Part shown: piece by piece, positions 12,824-20,972 of the stretch
Layout: each line of letters begins with the position of its first letter
Numbering within the stretch: position 1 is the first letter of the stretch
DNA from: Diacronema lutheri
Taxonomy: Eukaryota; Haptophyta; Pavlovophyceae; Pavlovales; Pavlovaceae
Length of the DNA: 64,000 nt
Reading direction: 5' to 3'
NCBI GenBank assembly: GCA_019448385.1
Contig: JAGTXO010000012.1
Span: 890,501 to 954,500, forward strand
The notes under the pieces: generated by a model
Seen by the model: only the letters and a program-made list of their open reading frames with translations
Told to the model about the DNA's origin: nothing
Databases searched by the model: none
Position numbers and translations under genes: made by a program

Positions 12824-12874
12824 TCCGCCTCTTTCCACCGCCCGGTTCGATTTGGGTGAAATTTGAAGAACGCC

Positions 12875-13196
12875 ATGCTGAGCCTCTTCCCCAGCCGCGT
12901 GGCCCTGCGCGCGCCGCGGCCGCTGATGGTGGGCATGACGTCGCGCTGGTTCAAGGTGCGCGCGTCGGTGAAGAAGATGTGTGACGCGTGCTACATCGTT
13001 AAGCGCAGCGGCCGCGTCCATGTGCTCTGCAAGCGCGACGCAAAGGTGCGCATCGCGCGCCGTGCGCGCGAGCGTGCGCCGCGTGTGGGCGGCCGCGCTC
13101 GCAGTCGTCGGCGCTGAGCGCGGTGCGGGCATCCCTTGTTCCTCCCTTTCTGCCCGCTCCACACTCTGGGCGCAGCACAAGCAACGGCAAGGATGA
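12875..13196 (+). CDS. Mitochondrial ribosomal protein bL36m
   Basis: Two exons, 12875..13045 and 13176..13196 (GT-AG, phase 0), 63 residues. The N-terminal 25 residues are a basic, hydrophobic presequence; then comes the complete bL36 core '[20 protein letters not shown]' and '[18 protein letters not shown]' with the zinc ligands (Cys, Cys, Cys, His) conserved. The second exon encodes only HKQRQG, the hallmark last residues of the family. It is a large-subunit protein of the mitochondrial ribosome (a plastid copy would normally be organelle-encoded in algae). The start is the only ATG before the core that gives a presequence. Confidence 0.92.
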
Positions 13197-13530: not shown

Positions 13531-14649
13531 ATGCGGGGCACACTCGCGTGCCTCGCCGTCGGCGTGGGCTTCGCCGCCGCGCCGCGCGCTGCGCACGTGC
13601 ACTCGCTCGCGCGCACTGCGCCCGGTTTTGCGCCTCTCGAGCCGCGTGCCGCGCTGCGCGCACCTCTGCCGCCGGCGCCGCCGCCGATCGCCCCGCCGCC
13701 GATCGCCCCGCTGCCGTCCACACCGGCGCCGTCGCGCCCGCTGCGGCCGCCGCCGCCGTCGCGCCCGCCGCCGCCCTCGCCATCACCACCACCCTCGCCG
13801 CCACCACCGCCCTCGCCGCCGCCGCGCCCGCCGCCGCCGCCCGCGCCGCCGTCGCCGCCGCCACCACCCGCATACGAATGCCACGTGCTGCACGACGGCT
13901 CCGACTACCGCGGGCGGCAGAACGTGACGGCGAACGGCTTCGCCTGCCAGTCGTGGGCGGCGCAGTACCCGCACGCGCACCCGTACGCACCGCTCTCCGC
14001 CTGGGCGCATGCCGGCGTCGGCGCGCACAACCACTGCCGCCGGCCGGGCGGCTACCCGTGCGCGTGGTGCTACACGCTCGGCGGCTCGGGCCGATTTGCG
14101 ACATGGGACTGCTGCGAAATCGGCCCGCCGCGCGAGGCGTGCACCCTCTCGCCGCCGCCACCGCCGCCGCCGCCGCCGCCCAGCCCACCGCGCGCGCCGC
14201 CGCCACCGCGCGAGCCTCCTCCTCCCTCGCCGTTTCCGTTTGTGTGGATCGGCGCGCTCTCGTCCGGACACGAGCCGCCGCCGCCGCCGGACGCGCCGCC
14301 GAGCCCGCCCGCCCGTCCGCCCGCGCGTCCGCCTCCATCGCCGCCACGCCCGCCGCCCGCGCGTCGGCGGCGCGCGCCAGCTGCCGCGCCGGCGGCGGGC
14401 GCGCCGTCGGGCTCGGCGCTCGAGCGGCGCGCGCGCGCGTGGGGCGAGCGGCGCGCGCTCGCCGCGCTGCTCGCGCTGGGCGTCGCTGGTGCGCTCTTCT
14501 GGCCCTACGTTGCGCACGCCGCGCGCGGTGTGGGTGGTGCGCGCCTGCTTCCGGTGCGCGCAAAAGTGGACAACACTTCGGAATCTCTGATTGCACCTCC
14601 GCGGCCTCCGCTTTCAGGGCAGGCCCGTAGACCCCACGGCCTCTGGTGA
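13531..14649 (+). CDS. Kringle-domain, proline-rich membrane or cell-surface protein
   Basis: Single ORF of 372 residues. Residues 1-21 form a signal peptide. Two SPPP/PPPP hydroxyproline-type linkers (about 45-112 and 208-290) flank a kringle domain at about 115-205: 'YECHVLHDGSDYRGRQNVTA', 'GFACQSWAAQYPHAH', 'NHCRRPGGYPCAWCYT' and 'WDCCEIGPPREAC' hold the six expected cysteines, the NxCRxP loop and the tryptophans. A hydrophobic segment (about 305-330) is a probable membrane anchor. Kringles bind proteins, lysine side chains or membranes in animals and occur sporadically in protists. The Pro-rich arms suggest an extracellular-matrix or flagellar-surface location (inference). The 3' end overlaps the convergent RNA-ligase ORF by 145 bp, so the last about 45 residues are uncertain. 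Confidence 0.8.
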   Translation: MRGTLACLAVGVGFAAAPRAAHVHSLARTAPGFAPLEPRAALRAPLPPAPPPIAPPPIAPLPSTPAPSRPLRPPPPSRPPPPSPSPPPSPPPPPSPPPRPPPPPAPPSPPPPPAYECHVLHDGSDYRGRQNVTANGFACQSWAAQYPHAHPYAPLSAWAHAGVGAHNHCRRPGGYPCAWCYTLGGSGRFATWDCCEIGPPREACTLSPPPPPPPPPPSPPRAPPPPREPPPPSPFPFVWIGALSSGHEPPPPPDAPPSPPARPPARPPPSPPRPPPARRRRAPAAAPAAGAPSGSALERRARAWGERRALAALLALGVAGALFWPYVAHAARGVGGARLLPVRAKVDNTSESLIAPPRPPLSGQARRPHGLW

Positions 14650-15834
14650 TTCAGGAGCACGGTGCCGTCGGCGAGGCAGACGGCGCGTGCGCTGCCGTCG
14701 AGGCCGTGCAGCGCGTCGACAGGCACGTGCTGCAGCACGGCCAGGCGCGCCGCGCCGTCCATCTGGCCGAGCAACCGCGCGCCCGCCTCGGCGCGCACAT
14801 GCAGCGAGTCGTTGGACGTGCGCGCGTCGGCGGCCGAGCCAAGCCGGCCGGCGTGCGCATCGTGCGCGAGCGCGAGCTGCGCGGGCGTGATGAGCGAGCC
14901 GTCGCGCCAGCGCGTCTCGAGCTGCAAGAAGCGCGCGAGCGCCGCGCCGTCCGCCGCGCCCGCGTCGGCCGCGAGCGCGACCGCGCGGTGCGCCTGCGCG
15001 ACGACGAGCGCGACGCCCACGAGCACGTGCGCGCGCAGCCGCGAGACGTACGGCGTGAAATCGGCGGGCGCGCCCGCGCCGAGCGCGCTGAGCGCGTCGA
15101 GGCCGTTGCGCGCGTCGACGAGCGCGGCGTGCGGCGTGAGCGCGTGCTGCACGCGGGCGAGGCGGCAGTACGCGTCCGCCCTCACCCTCACGCGGTGCGC
15201 GGAGCCGTCTGCGAGCTGGAAGCGCAGCACGACGCCCTCGCGCGCGCTGCCGTCGGGCGCGGCGCGCACCGCGCGCACGAGCGCGCGCAGCGCCGCCGCG
15301 CCGTTGGTCGCGGGCAGCGCGCCGCAGCCGACGAGCGGCACGCAGCGCAGCCCCGACGCGGCCGCGGCCGCCTCGACCTGCGTGCGGCTCAGCTCGACGC
15401 CGCGCGCGTCGTACGCGCCGAGGAGGTACACGCCCTCGTCCTCGTCCGCGTAGCGCACGGCGACGAGGTTTGCGCGAAAGAGGATCTCGCACAAGTAGGA
15501 CGTGCCCTCCGTGAGCGCCGCCACAGCGCAGCTGCGCAGCCTTCGTTCGGCCCACTGCGCCTGCTCAGAGTGGCACGAGCGCTGCGTGAGCACGCGCCAC
15601 TCGCCGCCGACGTGCGCGAGGAGGCCGAGCGAGCCGTTGAGCTTCTCCGTCGCCTCCCACCGCATTGAGCGCGCGCACAGCTCGTCAATGGACACTTCGT
15701 CCGCCTCGAGGTTGAAGAAGCGCGGGAACGGGGTGACGCACACGTTCGTCTCGCGCGCGCGCGCGTCGCGCGGCGGGAACGAGCGCTCGACGATCACCAG
15801 GCCGCGCGCGAGCAGCAGCGGCGCGCTCCCCGCA
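14505..15834 (-). CDS. T4 Rnl1-like RNA ligase region
   Basis: An open frame of about 440 residues on the minus strand. Nucleotidyltransferase ligase motifs appear in order: the N-terminal 'ARGLVIVER...TPFPRFFN' (before motif I), motif I 'WEATEKLNGSLGLL' with the adenylated lysine, 'YLCEILFRANLVAVRY' (motif III region), 'EGVVLRFQ' (motif IV) and 'HRVRVRADAYCRL' (motif V). An alpha-helical C-terminal domain follows, as in the Rnl1 family. Such enzymes seal RNA breaks with ATP, as in tRNA repair or splicing. No ATG precedes the start of the domain; the first in-frame ATG (15665) lies just before motif I, so this region probably belongs to a longer gene together with the ORF upstream of it, which is read in another frame. 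The 3' end overlaps the kringle gene. Confidence 0.75.
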
Positions 15835-16752
15835 GAGCGCGAGTGTCTCGGGCACGAGCGCACGCAGCGCGAGCGCGCGCGCCGGCCCGGCATCCGTCGC
15901 CCACGCGTCGAGGAGCGAGGCGCGCCAGCACGCGTAGGATCGCGCCGATGCGGTCGACGCGCCGAACGTGCGGTGGACGATACGCAGCAGCGGCGAGAGC
16001 GGAGCGCCGTGCGCGTCGAAGGCGGCGCGCACGGCGGTGGCAAGCGCGGCGCGGTCCAGCTGCTCCGCCGCCTCCGTCGCGATCAGGTGGCAGTCGAAGA
16101 GCTCCGCGGCAAAAAGGCGCGCGTTCTCCGCCTCGAAGAGGCTGTAGAGCTTCCACGCGCACAGGCTTTCGAGGCGCGCGCACGCGGCGACGCGCACGGG
16201 CGGGCCGAGCACGGCAGGCAGCAGCTCGGCGCGCGCCGGCGGCTCGAGCGGCTCACCCCAGCCGAGGTTGATCGACGCGAGCGCCCACTCGCCGTCGCCG
16301 ACCGCGCGGTGGCGCACGCCGAGCGTGACGGTCGGCTGCTCGGGGTGATCGCTGTGGCGGCGCGCGTACACGAGCTCGAGCTCGATACCGTCATCGCTCG
16401 TCGCCGCGCATACCTCGCGCACGCGCGCCGCGCTCAGCTCGAGGTCGTTGGGCCAGAGCGCGAGGAAGTTGAGGGTGTCCGCGCGGCGCGGCGACGACGG
16501 CACGTGCAGCCGGAGGAGCAGGCTTCCGCGCAGTACGAGCGTGTCGGCGTGTGGCGTGCGCGTGAGCTGCCGGAGGAACCCCTCGAGCGCGTGCAGCGTG
16601 CGCTCGTACGCACTCAGCGAGCGCAGCCGCGCGCGGCACGCGTCACGTGCGCGCGCGCGCAGCCGCACCAGCAGCAGCGCCGCGCCGAGCACGGCCGTGC
16701 AAAGCACGGCGCCGCCGAGCGCCAGCCGGCTTGCACGACGGTTCTCCAGCAT
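15685..16752 (-). CDS. Membrane-anchored nucleotidyltransferase-like ORF upstream of the RNA ligase
   Basis: An ORF of 355 residues from the ATG at 16752. The N-terminus has one transmembrane segment (about 12-30) followed by Arg-rich residues. The region 45-305 resembles MNT-type nucleotidyltransferases: 'DTLVLRGSLLLRLHVPSSPR', 'LNFLALWPNDLEL', 'GIELELVYARR', 'INLGWGEPL', 'LESLCAWKLYSLFE' and 'ELFDCHLIATEAAEQ' follow the order of the helix-strand core and the helical C-terminal part of that superfamily. A clear GS..DxD catalytic pair is not evident, so activity is uncertain. The last about 45 residues look like out-of-frame sequence; coding sense moves to the neighbouring RNA-ligase frame and I see no convincing intron. 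It may be one fused protein or two adjacent genes. Family assignment is tentative. Confidence 0.5.
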   Translation of the reverse strand: MLENRRASRLALGGAVLCTAVLGAALLLVRLRARARDACRARLRSLSAYERTLHALEGFLRQLTRTPHADTLVLRGSLLLRLHVPSSPRRADTLNFLALWPNDLELSAARVREVCAATSDDGIELELVYARRHSDHPEQPTVTLGVRHRAVGDGEWALASINLGWGEPLEPPARAELLPAVLGPPVRVAACARLESLCAWKLYSLFEAENARLFAAELFDCHLIATEAAEQLDRAALATAVRAAFDAHGAPLSPLLRIVHRTFGASTASARSYACWRASLLDAWATDAGPARALALRALVPETLALCGERAAAARARPGDRRALVPAARRARARDERVRHPVPALLQPRGGRSVH

Positions 16753-16929: not shown

Positions 16930-19137
16930 TTAAAGGACAGTGCGCGAGAAGACCGCGCTCCCCAGCCTCCCCTTGGCGCGCTCACCGCGCGCCGTGTCGG
17001 GCTGGCCGGTGACGGCGATCACGCGCTCCCACGTGCGGCCGTTCGGCTCCATCATGCGCGGCGAGTTCGCCACGAGCGCGTTGATCGGGATGTACACGAG
17101 TCGGTTGTTGACCATCCCCACGCTGTACGCTGTGTACCACGCCTGCACTCGCACGCCGCAGCGCGCCGCGCGGCGATGGCGTGCGGTGGGCGCGCAGTAG
17201 GGCCAGGCGGGGAAGTGGGGCCGAACGAGCGAACCGGCGCACACGCAGCCGGCGCGGGCCGGCCGCACCATCGCGCCGTGCACCGCGTTCTGCGCGAGGA
17301 GCAAGCAGTAGATGGCGTCGGCGGCGTTTGCAGGCACCGAGCGAATCATGTACGACGGGTCGATGTACTTGACCGTCACCTTTTTGTGCGCAGAGCCAAA
17401 GTGAGTGCCGATGCGCTCCTTGAGCCACAAGCCGAGCTCGGGCAGCTTGCGGTTGCCGCCCGCGTCGACCGTCGCCGACTGCCCGAGGATCTCCTCGCCG
17501 GCGCCCTCCGCGACGACGACGAGCGCGTGCCCCTTTCGGTGCAGTACGCGCTCCAGGTGGCACAAGAGACCATGCTCGCCGTCCAGCACGACAGGCACCT
17601 CTGGCACGAGGCACAGGTCGACCTCGCCCGACGCGAGCGTCGCGTGCACGGCTATGAATCCGGACGAGCGCCCCATCAGCTTGACGATCCCGATGCCGTT
17701 GGGCAAATTGCACCGCGCCTCGACCTGCGCCGAGCGGATCGCCGCCTGCGCCTCCTCCACGGCCGTCGCAAAGCCAAACGAGCGGTCGATCAGATCAATG
17801 TCGTTGTCGATCGTCTTGGGAATGCCGACCACCTGCGCGCGGACGACCGGTGGGCGCCGGGCGCGCCGCGCGTGAGCGGGCGACCACGCGTGCCGCGCGC
17901 GCGGGTGCGCGCGGGTGCGCGCCGTGCGCCGCGCGCACCGCCACGTTGAGCTCGAGGCGGCGCGCCTCTTCGGCAATCTCGTTGGCCGCGCGGTGCGTGC
18001 CGTCGCCGCCGACGACGTACCTGGCGCGAGCGCGGGCGGGCGACGGCTCAGCGCGGCGTGCGCGCGCGTGCACGCCGGGCGCAGGGTGGCGGCGCGCGGC
18101 GCGCGATGCGCCAGCGGCGCGCGACGCGCGCGCTCGCACAGCTGGTTGATCGCGCGCTCCTGCAGAAAGTCGATGGTGCGGCGCAGATCGAAGGAGCCGC
18201 GCCCGCTGCCCAACAGCGTGCCGCCCTGGTGCTGCAGCCCGACCACCGCGTCGAGGGTCAGATCGACCGGCTCGCACCCCGCCTCGTCCGCGCGGAAGCC
18301 CTGGTAGCCGCCGCGCACGCCCAGCACACCGTGCACGCCGTAGAGCGAGAGGAGCGTGCGCACGAGCCCCTGGATGATGTTGTTCAGCCCGGGGCACAGC
18401 CCGCCGCACGTGACGATCGCCGCGCGCACGAGCGACGGGTCAAAGTGCAGCGACGCGCGCGGGCCGGCGCGCAAGTAAGCGGTGGTCACAGCGGGCGAGC
18501 CACGCTTGCGCACAATGTCGCGCAGCACGACGTCCGACACGCCGAGCAGCTGGTGGTAGGGCTGCTGCAGCGGCTCATCGGCGGCGCCGTCGCCGCCCAC
18601 GCCGAGACCCATCACGTTGGTCACGCCGGCTGGTCGTGCGTACTGCGAGAGGTGCGGCACGGCGAGCACGAACACGTCGGACAGCGTAATGTCGGCCAGC
18701 CGCACGAGCTCGCAGTTGAAGCCCTGCGGGTGCCGGCGCACAAACTCCGCCGTCACGAGCTCGTGCGCGCGCTGCCACTTGCCGGCCGCCGAGCCGCGGC
18801 CGACATGGGCTGCGGGGGCTCGGCCGGCGCAGGCCCCTCCCGATCGGGCTCGGCCGGCGCAGGCCCCTCCCGATCGGACGGTGCAAGCCGGGCCTCGCTC
18901 GGTGCAAGCCGGGCCTCGCTCTCTTTGCGGGAGAAGAAGCCCATCAAACTCGCCCTCTGCGAGCGCGCTTGTCGTCGGACTGGTGCCCGGCGCAGCAACG
19001 CCGGGAGATTTCCAAGAATTGGTGTGGGAGGGAGTTCCAACCCGCGGGCTTCCTCCAGTGTCCGCTTCCTCCAGTGCCGCACGGCCGCGCCCACGCGCAG
19101 GAACAGCGCAGGCGGGCGGGGAAACAGGCGCGGACAT
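16930..19137 (-). CDS. PFK: ATP-dependent 6-phosphofructokinase, plant type
   Basis: Exons on the minus strand: 18140..19137, 17939..18020, 17269..17832 and 16930..17142, phase-consistent GT-AG, about 618 residues. Motifs of the group III (plant/PPi-like) PFK family: 'AAIVTCGGLCPGLNNIIQG', 'YVVGGDGTHRAANEIAEEA' (GGDGT, as in ATP-dependent members; PPi enzymes have GGDD), 'VVGIPKTIDNDIDLIDRSFG', 'GIVKLMGRSSGFIAVHATLA', 'AEGAGEEILG' and 'KYIDPSYMIRSVPANA'. It phosphorylates fructose 6-phosphate in glycolysis. The 5' end is unclear: the in-frame ATG is at 19137, yet a more natural-looking N-terminus ('MGFFSRKESEARLAPSE') starts at 18944 in another frame, with 21-bp and 30-bp direct repeats. Core confident, start not. 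Confidence 0.88.
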   Translation of the reverse strand: MSAPVSPPACAVPARGRGRAALEEADTGGSPRVGTPSHTNSWKSPGVAAPGTSPTTSALAEGEFDGLLLPQRERGPACTERGPACTVRSGGACAGRARSGGACAGRAPAAHVGRGSAAGKWQRAHELVTAEFVRRHPQGFNCELVRLADITLSDVFVLAVPHLSQYARPAGVTNVMGLGVGGDGAADEPLQQPYHQLLGVSDVVLRDIVRKRGSPAVTTAYLRAGPRASLHFDPSLVRAAIVTCGGLCPGLNNIIQGLVRTLLSLYGVHGVLGVRGGYQGFRADEAGCEPVDLTLDAVVGLQHQGGTLLGSGRGSFDLRRTIDFLQERAINQLCERARRAPLAHRAPRAATLRPACTRAHAALSRRPPALAPGTSSAATARTARPTRLPKRRAASSSTWRCARRTARTRAHPRARHAWSPAHARRARRPPVVRAQVVGIPKTIDNDIDLIDRSFGFATAVEEAQAAIRSAQVEARCNLPNGIGIVKLMGRSSGFIAVHATLASGEVDLCLVPEVPVVLDGEHGLLCHLERVLHRKGHALVVVAEGAGEEILGQSATVDAGGNRKLPELGLWLKERIGTHFGSAHKKVTVKYIDPSYMIRSVPANAADAIYCLLLAQNAVHGAMVRPARAGCVCAGSLVRPHFPAWPYCAPTARHRRAARCGVRVQAWYTAYSVGMVNNRLVYIPINALVANSPRMMEPNGRTWERVIAVTGQPDTARGERAKGRLGSAVFSRTVL

Positions 19138-19319
19138 CGACTGGCGACTCGCGGCGGCAGCACGCAGAGCACTCTCACTGCGCGGATGGCATTGCAGGTG
19201 CGCTCGTGCGTCGCTCGAGTCTCGACGCCACCGCTTCCGGGTTCGCAACCTCCGGCCTGGTGAGCTGCCAGGGCGGTCAGCGGCACGGCTGGCGGGCGCC
19301 TGCTCGCGCGTTGCGCCGC

Positions 19320-19815
19320 TCAGCGTCCGCGTGTCACCTCCATGGTCGCCGTGCCGTTGTGCAGCGCTTCGCTCGGCCCGTCGGCACGTTGGACCAACTC
19401 GCCGCGACCTGCGGCAAAGTGCGCGGCGGACGGCTGCGCAGAGCCGCGCGTGTCGGCTGCGTGCATGTAGCCCGAGATTACAAAGATGACACCGAGGATG
19501 ACGGCCACCGCTGCGGCGCGAGCGCAGCGGCGTGGGACACAGCGATCCGTCGCGCGCTTGGTCAGCGTGCCTCGCGCGCGCTGGGTGGGCGCGCGGGCGT
19601 AAACGCGCACGCGGCGCGACGAGCGGGGCGGCGCATGTACCGGCCGTGCGCTTGAGCACCGTGTGCCTCGGCGCCTCGCGCTTGAACGGGTTGTTCGCGG
19701 CGTACCACGCTGCATCCATGAGCTCACGCGTCCGCCATTCTTCCCAGCGTGGCGGAAAGGGACGCGCGGGAGCGAACTCGGGGGCGGAGCGGGGGAGGGC
19801 CGCAGGCGAGGCCAT
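19320..19815 (-). CDS. Small single-pass membrane protein, unrecognised
   Basis: Two exons, 19641..19815 and 19320..19510 (GT-AG), 121 residues. The N-terminal part is Pro/Ala-rich with 'PPRWEEWRTRELMDAAWYAA' and 'NNPFKREAPRHTVLKRT', then one transmembrane helix ('AVILGVIFVISGY') and a short hydrophilic tail. Size and layout resemble small inner-membrane subunits of mitochondrial complexes, but I cannot assign a family. The start codon at 19815 is the first in the frame and overlaps the start codon of VPS26 on the other strand within one CATG; a start at 19719 would remove that overlap and lose the 'WEEW' segment. Confidence 0.6.
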
Positions 19816-20972
19816 GGTGCGCTCGCGGCGCGCGGTGCGGCCGCGCCGCGGCCGCGTATCGCTCTGCGCACCCGTGCTGAGCAGGCGTCGCGCGCCTGCG
19901 CCGTCTGCGCCGCCCGCAGGCCTCGCTCTTTGGCTTTGTGGGCGCGAGCCCGACGATTCACATCGCGCTCGCGGATGCGGACACGCGCAAGCGCGTGCCG
20001 GTGACGGTGGGCGGCAAGGCGAGCGAGCTGTACCTCTTCATGGCGCAGGATGACGTGCGCGGCACGGTCACCGTTGAGCCACCCAAGGGCAAATCGCGCC
20101 TGGAGCACATGGGGATCAAGATTGAGTTGATAGGCAGGATCGGTGCGAGCGGCTGCGCGGCGTGCGCGCGGCGCGGGGCATGCGCTTGGGGCTCTCGCGC
20201 GCGAAAGGGCGTGCGCGCCCACGTGTTCCTCTTCCTCCGGCGCCGCGCTGCGCCGCGCCGTCCGCCGCGCGTGCGCGCTCGCGTGCGCGCAGAGGTTGCG
20301 AATGACCGTGCGGGCCGCTCCGAGTTCACGTCGCTGCTGCGCGAGCTCGAGCCGGCGGGCGAGCTGAGCGGCGTGCGGCAGCTGCCGTTCGAGTTTGCCA
20401 ACGTGGAGAAGCAGTTCGAGTCGTACGACGGCATCAACGTGCGGCTGCGCTACGTGCTCAAGGTGACGATCGCGCGGCAGTACAATTCAAATGTGAGCGC
20501 CGAGCTTGAGCTGCGCGTGCACGTGCTCTCGTACGAGCCGGAGATCAACTCGTCGATCAAGATGGAGGTGGGGATCGAGGACTGCCTGCACATCGAGTTT
20601 GAGTACAACCGCGCCAAGTACCACCTGCGCGACGTGATCCTCGGCCGCATCCACTTTTTGCTCGTGCGGATTAAGATCAAGCATATGGAGCTCGCGATCA
20701 TCAAGCGCGAGCAGTGCGGCTCGGGTGGCGGCGCGTACAACGAGTCGGAGACGGTCACCAAGTTTGAGGTGATGGACGGCGCACCCGTCCGCTCCGAGTC
20801 GATCCCGATCCGGCTCTTCTTGTCGGGCTTTGACCAGCTCACACCGACGATGCGAAACGTGAACAACAAGTTCTCGGTCAAGTACTTCCTCAACCTGGTG
20901 CTCATCGACGAAGAGGACAGGCGCTACTTCAAGCAGCAGGAGATCACACTCTGGCGCAAGCTCTGTGTCTGA
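19814..20972 (+). CDS. VPS26: Retromer subunit VPS26
   Basis: Exons 19814..19816 (only the ATG), 19920..20142 and 20293..20972, GT-AG, 301 residues. The protein begins 'MASLFGFVGASPTIHIAL' and shows the arrestin-like VPS26 fold throughout: 'RLEHMGIKIELIGRIE', 'YDGINVRLRYVLKVTIAR', 'SSIKMEVGIEDCLHIEFEYN', 'KYHLRDVILGRIHFLLVRIK', 'MDGAPVRSESIPIRLFLSG' and 'KYFLNLVLIDEEDRRYFKQQ'. VPS26 is the arrestin-like component of the retromer cargo complex (VPS35-VPS29-VPS26) that recycles receptors from endosomes to the Golgi. The first coding exon of a single codon is inferred because a clean GTGCGC donor follows an ATG at the right phase; the remainder is certain. Confidence 0.93.

Follow-up and report, generated by a model that had tools for sequence, protein, structure and literature searches.

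A 64,000-nucleotide window of the haptophyte Diacronema lutheri (contig JAGTXO010000012.1 of assembly GCA_019448385.1, positions 890,501 to 954,500; positions below are counted from its first letter) contains on its minus strand two open reading frames (ORFs) in different frames, which together encode a domain of the AbiEii/MenT nucleotidyltransferase family followed by a T4 Rnl1-type RNA ligase domain. ORF 1 is open from 16845 to 15685, with its first ATG at 16752, and ORF 2 is open from 16082 to 14505; we refer to the combined locus as the fusion gene. An earlier note on this DNA had described two same-strand ORFs in different frames, a nucleotidyltransferase-like part with an N-terminal hydrophobic segment lying directly ahead of an Rnl1-type ligase, and a nuclear setting, and all of this is upheld: both domains match family profiles and the surrounding genes look nuclear. 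The features of the locus are as follows, with GC3 denoting the fraction of third codon positions that are G or C.

14646..16752, minus strand: the whole gene, probably single, comprising a hydrophobic segment, an AbiEii-like domain and an Rnl1-like ligase, with one frame discontinuity (GC3, frame switch)
16666..16722, minus strand: hydrophobic segment, residues 11-29, a probable membrane anchor or signal anchor (mean Kyte-Doolittle value 2.37)
15958..16578, minus strand: AbiEii/MenT-family nucleotidyltransferase domain, residues 59-265 (PF08843, PDLC02319)
16468..16476, minus strand: catalytic DxD site, which reads T93-L-N95 (D in 72/74 and 73/73 relatives with a letter)
16267..16269, minus strand: site of the third catalytic aspartate, which reads N162 (D in 72/73 relatives with a letter)
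16150..16152, minus strand: K201, the conserved family lysine, kept (K in 73/73 relatives with a letter)
15819..15849, minus strand: one-base frame change, with a run of four G (codon-usage breakpoint scan, GC3)
14991..15809, minus strand: T4 Rnl1-like nucleotidyltransferase domain with the beginning of the helical C-terminal region, residues ~315-587 (PHROG 562 and a hidden Markov model, HMM, of our own)
15720..15722, minus strand: R344, replacing the invariant K of PFxKFFN (K in 165/165 relatives)
15642..15644, minus strand: K370, the ligase nucleophile (motif I, codon AAG), kept (K in 166/166 rows)
15636..15638, minus strand: N372, at the place where motif I (KxDG) otherwise has an invariant D (D in 165/165 relatives)
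15180..15188, minus strand: motif V K-x-K, which reads R522-V-R524, both codons AGG (K in 165/165 relatives at each site)

The N-terminal segment is modelled as a helix over residues 1-30, with block scores of 71, 88 and 78 in the predicted local distance difference test (pLDDT). Downstream of it, ORF 1 matches the AbiEii family of Pfam (PF08843) with 44.5 bits, above the threshold of 22.5 (E 2.3e-11; E 8.8e-11 for the joined reading) and the PADLOC AbiEii profile PDLC02319 with 117.7 bits (E 1.6e-34). Neither PHROG nor NCBIfam yields a match to it, a phmmer search of the PDB with it gave nothing useful, and a single-sequence search for AbiEii relatives among plasmids, phages, genome contigs and viral contigs found none. 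The catalytic-site counts listed above come from 80 AbiEii ORFs at 82 loci, among the matches listed, and take in only the rows with a letter at the site. Among 30 columns that are identical in at least 17 of 18 relatives, the algal domain keeps 17, including K201, E195 and D220, and loses 13, which include the catalytic D93, D95 and D162 as well as R214, K216 and D217. The earlier call of a nucleotidyltransferase holds for the family, which is AbiEii/MenT, but the aspartates of the active site are gone. In MenT1, a D41A substitution abolishes both toxicity and nucleotide transfer (PMC10435456); by motif spacing, D41 would be the equivalent of the first aspartate of the DxD motif (position 93), and K201 presumably corresponds to MenT1 K137.

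The algal domain is like the AbiEii/MenT (DUF1814) toxins in its sequence family over about 210 residues and in its lysine, but it differs from them in lacking the catalytic DxD and third aspartate, in its fusion to a ligase, and in its location in a eukaryotic nuclear genome. No match to an antitoxin (AbiEi/MenA) was seen among the four neighbouring ORFs scanned, those for phosphofructokinase, a Kringle domain, a sodium:dicarboxylate (SDF) symporter and ribosomal protein L36. In pairing a Pol-beta-type nucleotidyltransferase with an RNA ligase the fusion gene also resembles the RlaP systems; it departs from them in that its nucleotidyltransferase matches AbiEii, is fused to the ligase, and is without catalytic carboxylates. 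Pfam includes an RlaP model, and a Pfam scan at E of 10 or less returned only AbiEii for the nucleotidyltransferase ORF; the comparison with RlaP is at the level of profiles. RlaP is the RNA-ligase-associated Pol-beta nucleotidyltransferase, predicted to restore lost nucleotides ahead of sealing (PMC7824862).

ORF 2 matches PHROG 562 (Rnl1) at E 3.5e-15, in keeping with the T4 Rnl1-type identity first proposed for it, and the ligase domain scores 132 bits over residues 333-591 against an HMM of 165 relatives, which are bacterial, archaeal, phage and viral-contig rows with near-duplicates included. The match to PF09414 (23.0 bits) lies under the cut-off of 27, and there is no match to NCBIfam, PADLOC or PF09511; the last of these, suggested earlier as a check on this ligase, matches another gene instead, on contig C88. 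A single-sequence search of viral contigs with the ligase found no relative. A profile made from the ligase and four phage relatives finds T4 Rnl1 in the PDB at E 2.8e-31, a value that is mainly due to the phage rows. Identity to T4 Rnl1-type ligases is 22-38% over the best segments (160 listed loci); motifs I, III and IV are recognisable, and the predicted fold is ligase-like, with block pLDDT values of 76-97 over residues 341-580. The N-terminal stretch that bacterial ligases have ahead of the RGL motif is not recognisable in the algal ligase, which has the AbiEii-like domain in front of it.

The ligase keeps 24 of the 35 columns that are at least 95% identical in the 165 relatives, among them K370, R316, Y528 and the glutamates of motifs III and IV, E422 and E505 (each present in 166/166 rows). 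Eleven are lost, and four of these are polar positions with the same residue in 165/165 relatives (K344R, D372N, K522R and K524R); their T4 equivalents we take to be K75, D101, K240 and K242. A literature search did not find the effect size of each of these substitutions on activity, which we presume that they lower. The loss of the three AbiEii aspartates and the alteration of these four ligase positions, as read from the DNA, are new in this analysis. They bear directly on the possibility that the locus encodes an active, membrane-tethered RNA-repair enzyme in which the arginines and asparagines are tolerated. While the retention of K370, E422, E505, R316 and Y528 in the ligase, and of K201 in the AbiEii-like domain, is what such an enzyme would show, T93, N95 and N162 occupy the places of active-site carboxylates, the first of which has a presumed MenT1 counterpart whose change to alanine is inactivating (D41A; PMC10435456), and four otherwise invariant ligase positions are altered. 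We consider an active enzyme unlikely, and the working unit combining end modification with ligation that was envisaged in the earlier note is poorly supported by a domain pair in which the aspartates have become threonine, asparagine and asparagine and four 165/165 ligase positions have changed.

Searches of the D. lutheri genome gave a single match to AbiEii and two to Rnl1-type ligases. The second Rnl1-type ligase lies on contig C88 at about 244501-250032 (L200:2-5533, minus strand) within an open frame of 1844 residues. It matches PF09511 at E 4.9e-11, with R3H and CNPase matches under the cut-off and a HAD-like motif noted by eye in the same frame. The two algal proteins share an Rnl1-type domain, but the C88 ligase has intact motif residues, including, as judged from its motifs, all four that are changed in the fusion, has other partner matches, and is far from the fusion ligase in the tree described below. 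This protein could be an enzyme of the alga itself for tRNA ligation or for repair.

The published D. lutheri assembly comprises 43,502,671 bp in 103 contigs with 73.25% GC (PMC8379373), and we considered whether high GC might account for the lysine to arginine changes. This explanation is weakened: the C88 ligase retains its lysines, in AAA and AAG codons, and its intact K, K-x-D-G and K-x-K mean that a high GC content is not in itself enough to impose the changes; the aspartate to asparagine changes run counter to GC pressure. Low lysine content is partly a genome-wide trait, with 2 lysines in the 702 residues of the fusion, 8/730 in the ligase part of the C88 frame, 1/372 in the Kringle ORF, 10/546 in the SDF symporter, and 2/270 and 9/300 in parts of the phosphofructokinase. 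Seven HSP70-family stretches, taken on the right strand, have lysine contents of 7.3-8.8% (five stretches), 4.2% and 1.3%. A reading of AGG as lysine was also considered and is not needed; the HSP70 stretches contain four AGG codons, the contexts of which were judged by eye only.

The relationship between the two ORFs can be followed in the third codon positions. In frame 0, GC3 takes values of 0.86-1.0 between 16,820 and 15,831; in frame 2 the values are 0.83-1.0, between 15,860 and 14,691. Because GC3 stays high along the one frame and then the other, the ORFs are not there by chance. There is a single coding track with one frame switch near 15,850-15,820, and a codon-usage breakpoint scan, trained on the fusion gene itself, gives the interval listed above. 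Read across the discontinuity, GC3 is 0.937 over 701 codons; it drops in the ligase frame past ~14,650, and the 3' end of the gene is accordingly approximate. Since the coding track changes frame once and few GT-AG introns could bridge the change, the most plausible reading of the locus is a single gene whose frame is displaced once by one base, not two genes.

The earlier note had left open whether two separate genes are present, and had observed that the ligase region is without an early start of its own. The latter is correct: in the stretch examined, a single ATG precedes the conserved RGL motif in the ligase frame, at 15893, which falls within the coding stretch of ORF 1, and the following one, at 15665, is too late for the ligase domain. 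The ATG at 15893 does offer a start for a second gene overlapping the first. However, above ~15,850 GC3 favours frame 0 (0.90 versus 0.60 and 0.83 in the two 90-base segments spanning 15,980-15,831), the ligase-frame residues preceding the RGL motif have no clear likeness by eye to the aligned phage ligases, and same-strand gene overlap is unusual in eukaryotes. Because the coding track is single, two genes are disfavoured, and we regard them as a quite improbable explanation.

Splicing at the junction within a single gene, through an ordinary or a weak intron, is more improbable still. In a listing of GT-AG pairs 30-400 bases apart, with donors at 15685-16150, acceptors at 15690 or above and the correct phase, only two pairs preserve both W276 and the RGL motif, 15904 to 15846 (58 bases) and 15904 to 15825 (79 bases). 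A narrower listing gave no GT-AG pair; we prefer the broader one because the upper bound of the narrower was set by W284, a residue without conservation. Also fitting are eleven GC-AG pairs, 22-61 bases in length, with donors considered up to 15,902 only. Nevertheless, both GT-AG candidates end in a GAG acceptor, so that there is still no convincing intron, as was said of this junction before, and in frame 0 the third positions of the candidate interval resemble those of coding sequence. Within the one-gene reading, the discontinuity would reflect an error in the consensus or a recent lesion; programmed frameshifting is the least likely cause. PacBio reads and Illumina data at about 150-fold coverage were reportedly used to polish the assembly (PMC8379373), for which reason a simple consensus error is less likely and is not the default, a point in favor of a decaying gene.

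As to the source of the two domains, we built a ligase tree of 68 rows, with 66 selected from the 165 relatives together with the two algal ligases. The fusion ligase falls within a clade of 40 bacterial and viral-contig rows (support 100/99), where it adjoins a Phycisphaerales ligase (L011; 97/77) and shares an open group with ligases of Calothrix and Rivularia. This position is unsure because the fusion ligase has a long branch (2.53) and a deviating composition, as the tree program warns. The ligase part, at least, would be of bacterial ancestry. The ligase loci (L005-L169) are the best 80 of 212 from genome contigs, the best 80 of at least 277 from viral contigs, and five phage records; in these loci no ORF of at least 60 residues matched AbiEii (phmmer to E 10; HMM of 18 relatives to E 1). 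Conversely, the ligase HMM had no match in the 82 AbiEii loci, among the matches listed and with flanks of up to 1.5 kb. Because neither domain was found beside the other, no bacterial operon in the sampled loci explains the fusion. A title-level literature search, the scope of which did not extend to the main survey of RNA-repair systems (Burroughs and Aravind 2016), found no fusion of AbiEii and an RNA ligase.

We note that the genomes of Calothrix (L012, L170) and Rivularia (L030, L171) each hold both an open-group ligase and an AbiEii. Their AbiEii proteins are the two best PDLC02319 matches among 32 genomes, and in Calothrix the ligase and the AbiEii are about 0.8 Mb apart.

The interpretation that we favor, tentatively, is of one nuclear gene, made up of a membrane anchor, an AbiEii/MenT domain and an Rnl1-type ligase, that would long have evolved as an expressed yet catalytically crippled protein. 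Of this, the order of the domains, the single coding track, the assignment to families and the residue losses are observed, and the mechanism that follows is inferred. The long branch, in conjunction with a frame that is open and GC3-rich over 700 codons, argues for its continued evolution as a protein. The anchored product would bind RNA ends without adding nucleotides to them, most likely tRNA acceptor ends or the ends of cleaved tRNAs; tRNA is suggested because both parent families act on it, the MenT toxins targeting acceptor stems (PMC10435456) and T4 Rnl1 sealing cleaved tRNA (PMC3400036). Self-adenylation at Lys370 may remain, although completed ligation is unlikely, and with little or no catalysis remaining the protein would be a tethered pseudoenzyme that binds or senses RNA.

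Several observations weigh against this interpretation. The frame discontinuity, if real, argues for decay. Only three of the 76 arginine codons of the gene are AGG, and two of them are the motif V substitutions (P about 0.001); because these hold two of the three, the changes look recent, which suggests that the motif V losses are themselves recent and fits ongoing decay. GC3 in frame 1 is likewise high (0.76-1.0) at about 15,440-14,690, so that the coding signal is less distinctive there. The AbiEii-like domain is a low-confidence model, with a mean pLDDT of 42.5 alone and values mostly below 50 in the joined model, and a phmmer search of the PDB with the ligase alone found no RNA ligase. 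Binding of RNA is argued from the parent families alone, and the presumed expression of and selection on the fusion are read from the DNA of a single strain.

A close second, and a substantial possibility, is a decaying gene: a once-active RNA-repair fusion whose catalytic residues disappeared when selection was relaxed and whose frame now has a lesion. The interruption of otherwise continuous coding in a polished assembly fits this, as do the catalytic losses in both domains and the motif V arginine codons, which are still AGG and one step from AAG. On the other hand, this is a single lesion in about 2.1 kb, the in-frame GC3 is still 0.937, and near-invariant columns are retained in both the ligase (24/35) and the AbiEii part (17/30). 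Returning to the pseudoenzyme reading, it could be extended to a domesticated bacterial conflict pair, in which a membrane-anchored non-catalytic sensor captures damaged tRNA ends and the ligase half is gated by +1 frameshifting, but we think this elaboration improbable.

Should expression and conservation of the gene be borne out, it would represent a eukaryotic fusion between an AbiEii/MenT-family domain and an Rnl1-type ligase, of which the searches made here found no other, in which two RNA end-processing domains have lost key active-site residues together, making RNA binding without catalysis a testable proposal. Should it be decaying, it would document the gain and loss of a bacterial RNA-conflict module by a haptophyte. 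In both cases, the proposal that this locus encodes a working, membrane-bound machine for RNA repair is weakened.

An Rfam scan of the window gave 0 matches. The genes near the fusion gene are nuclear-looking and include those for the SDF symporter and a phosphofructokinase, the latter (PF00365) at 16930-20037 on the minus strand; by eye it seems to be interrupted by GC-rich introns whose donors are GTGCG and whose acceptors are CAG, and some of these introns are read through in frame. The Kringle-domain ORF (PF00051) lies at 13531-14649 on the plus strand, convergent with the fusion gene, with its domain flanked by proline-rich stretches, and a small ORF at 12860-13117 on the plus strand matches ribosomal protein L36 (PF00444, E 1.6e-12), perhaps an organellar one.

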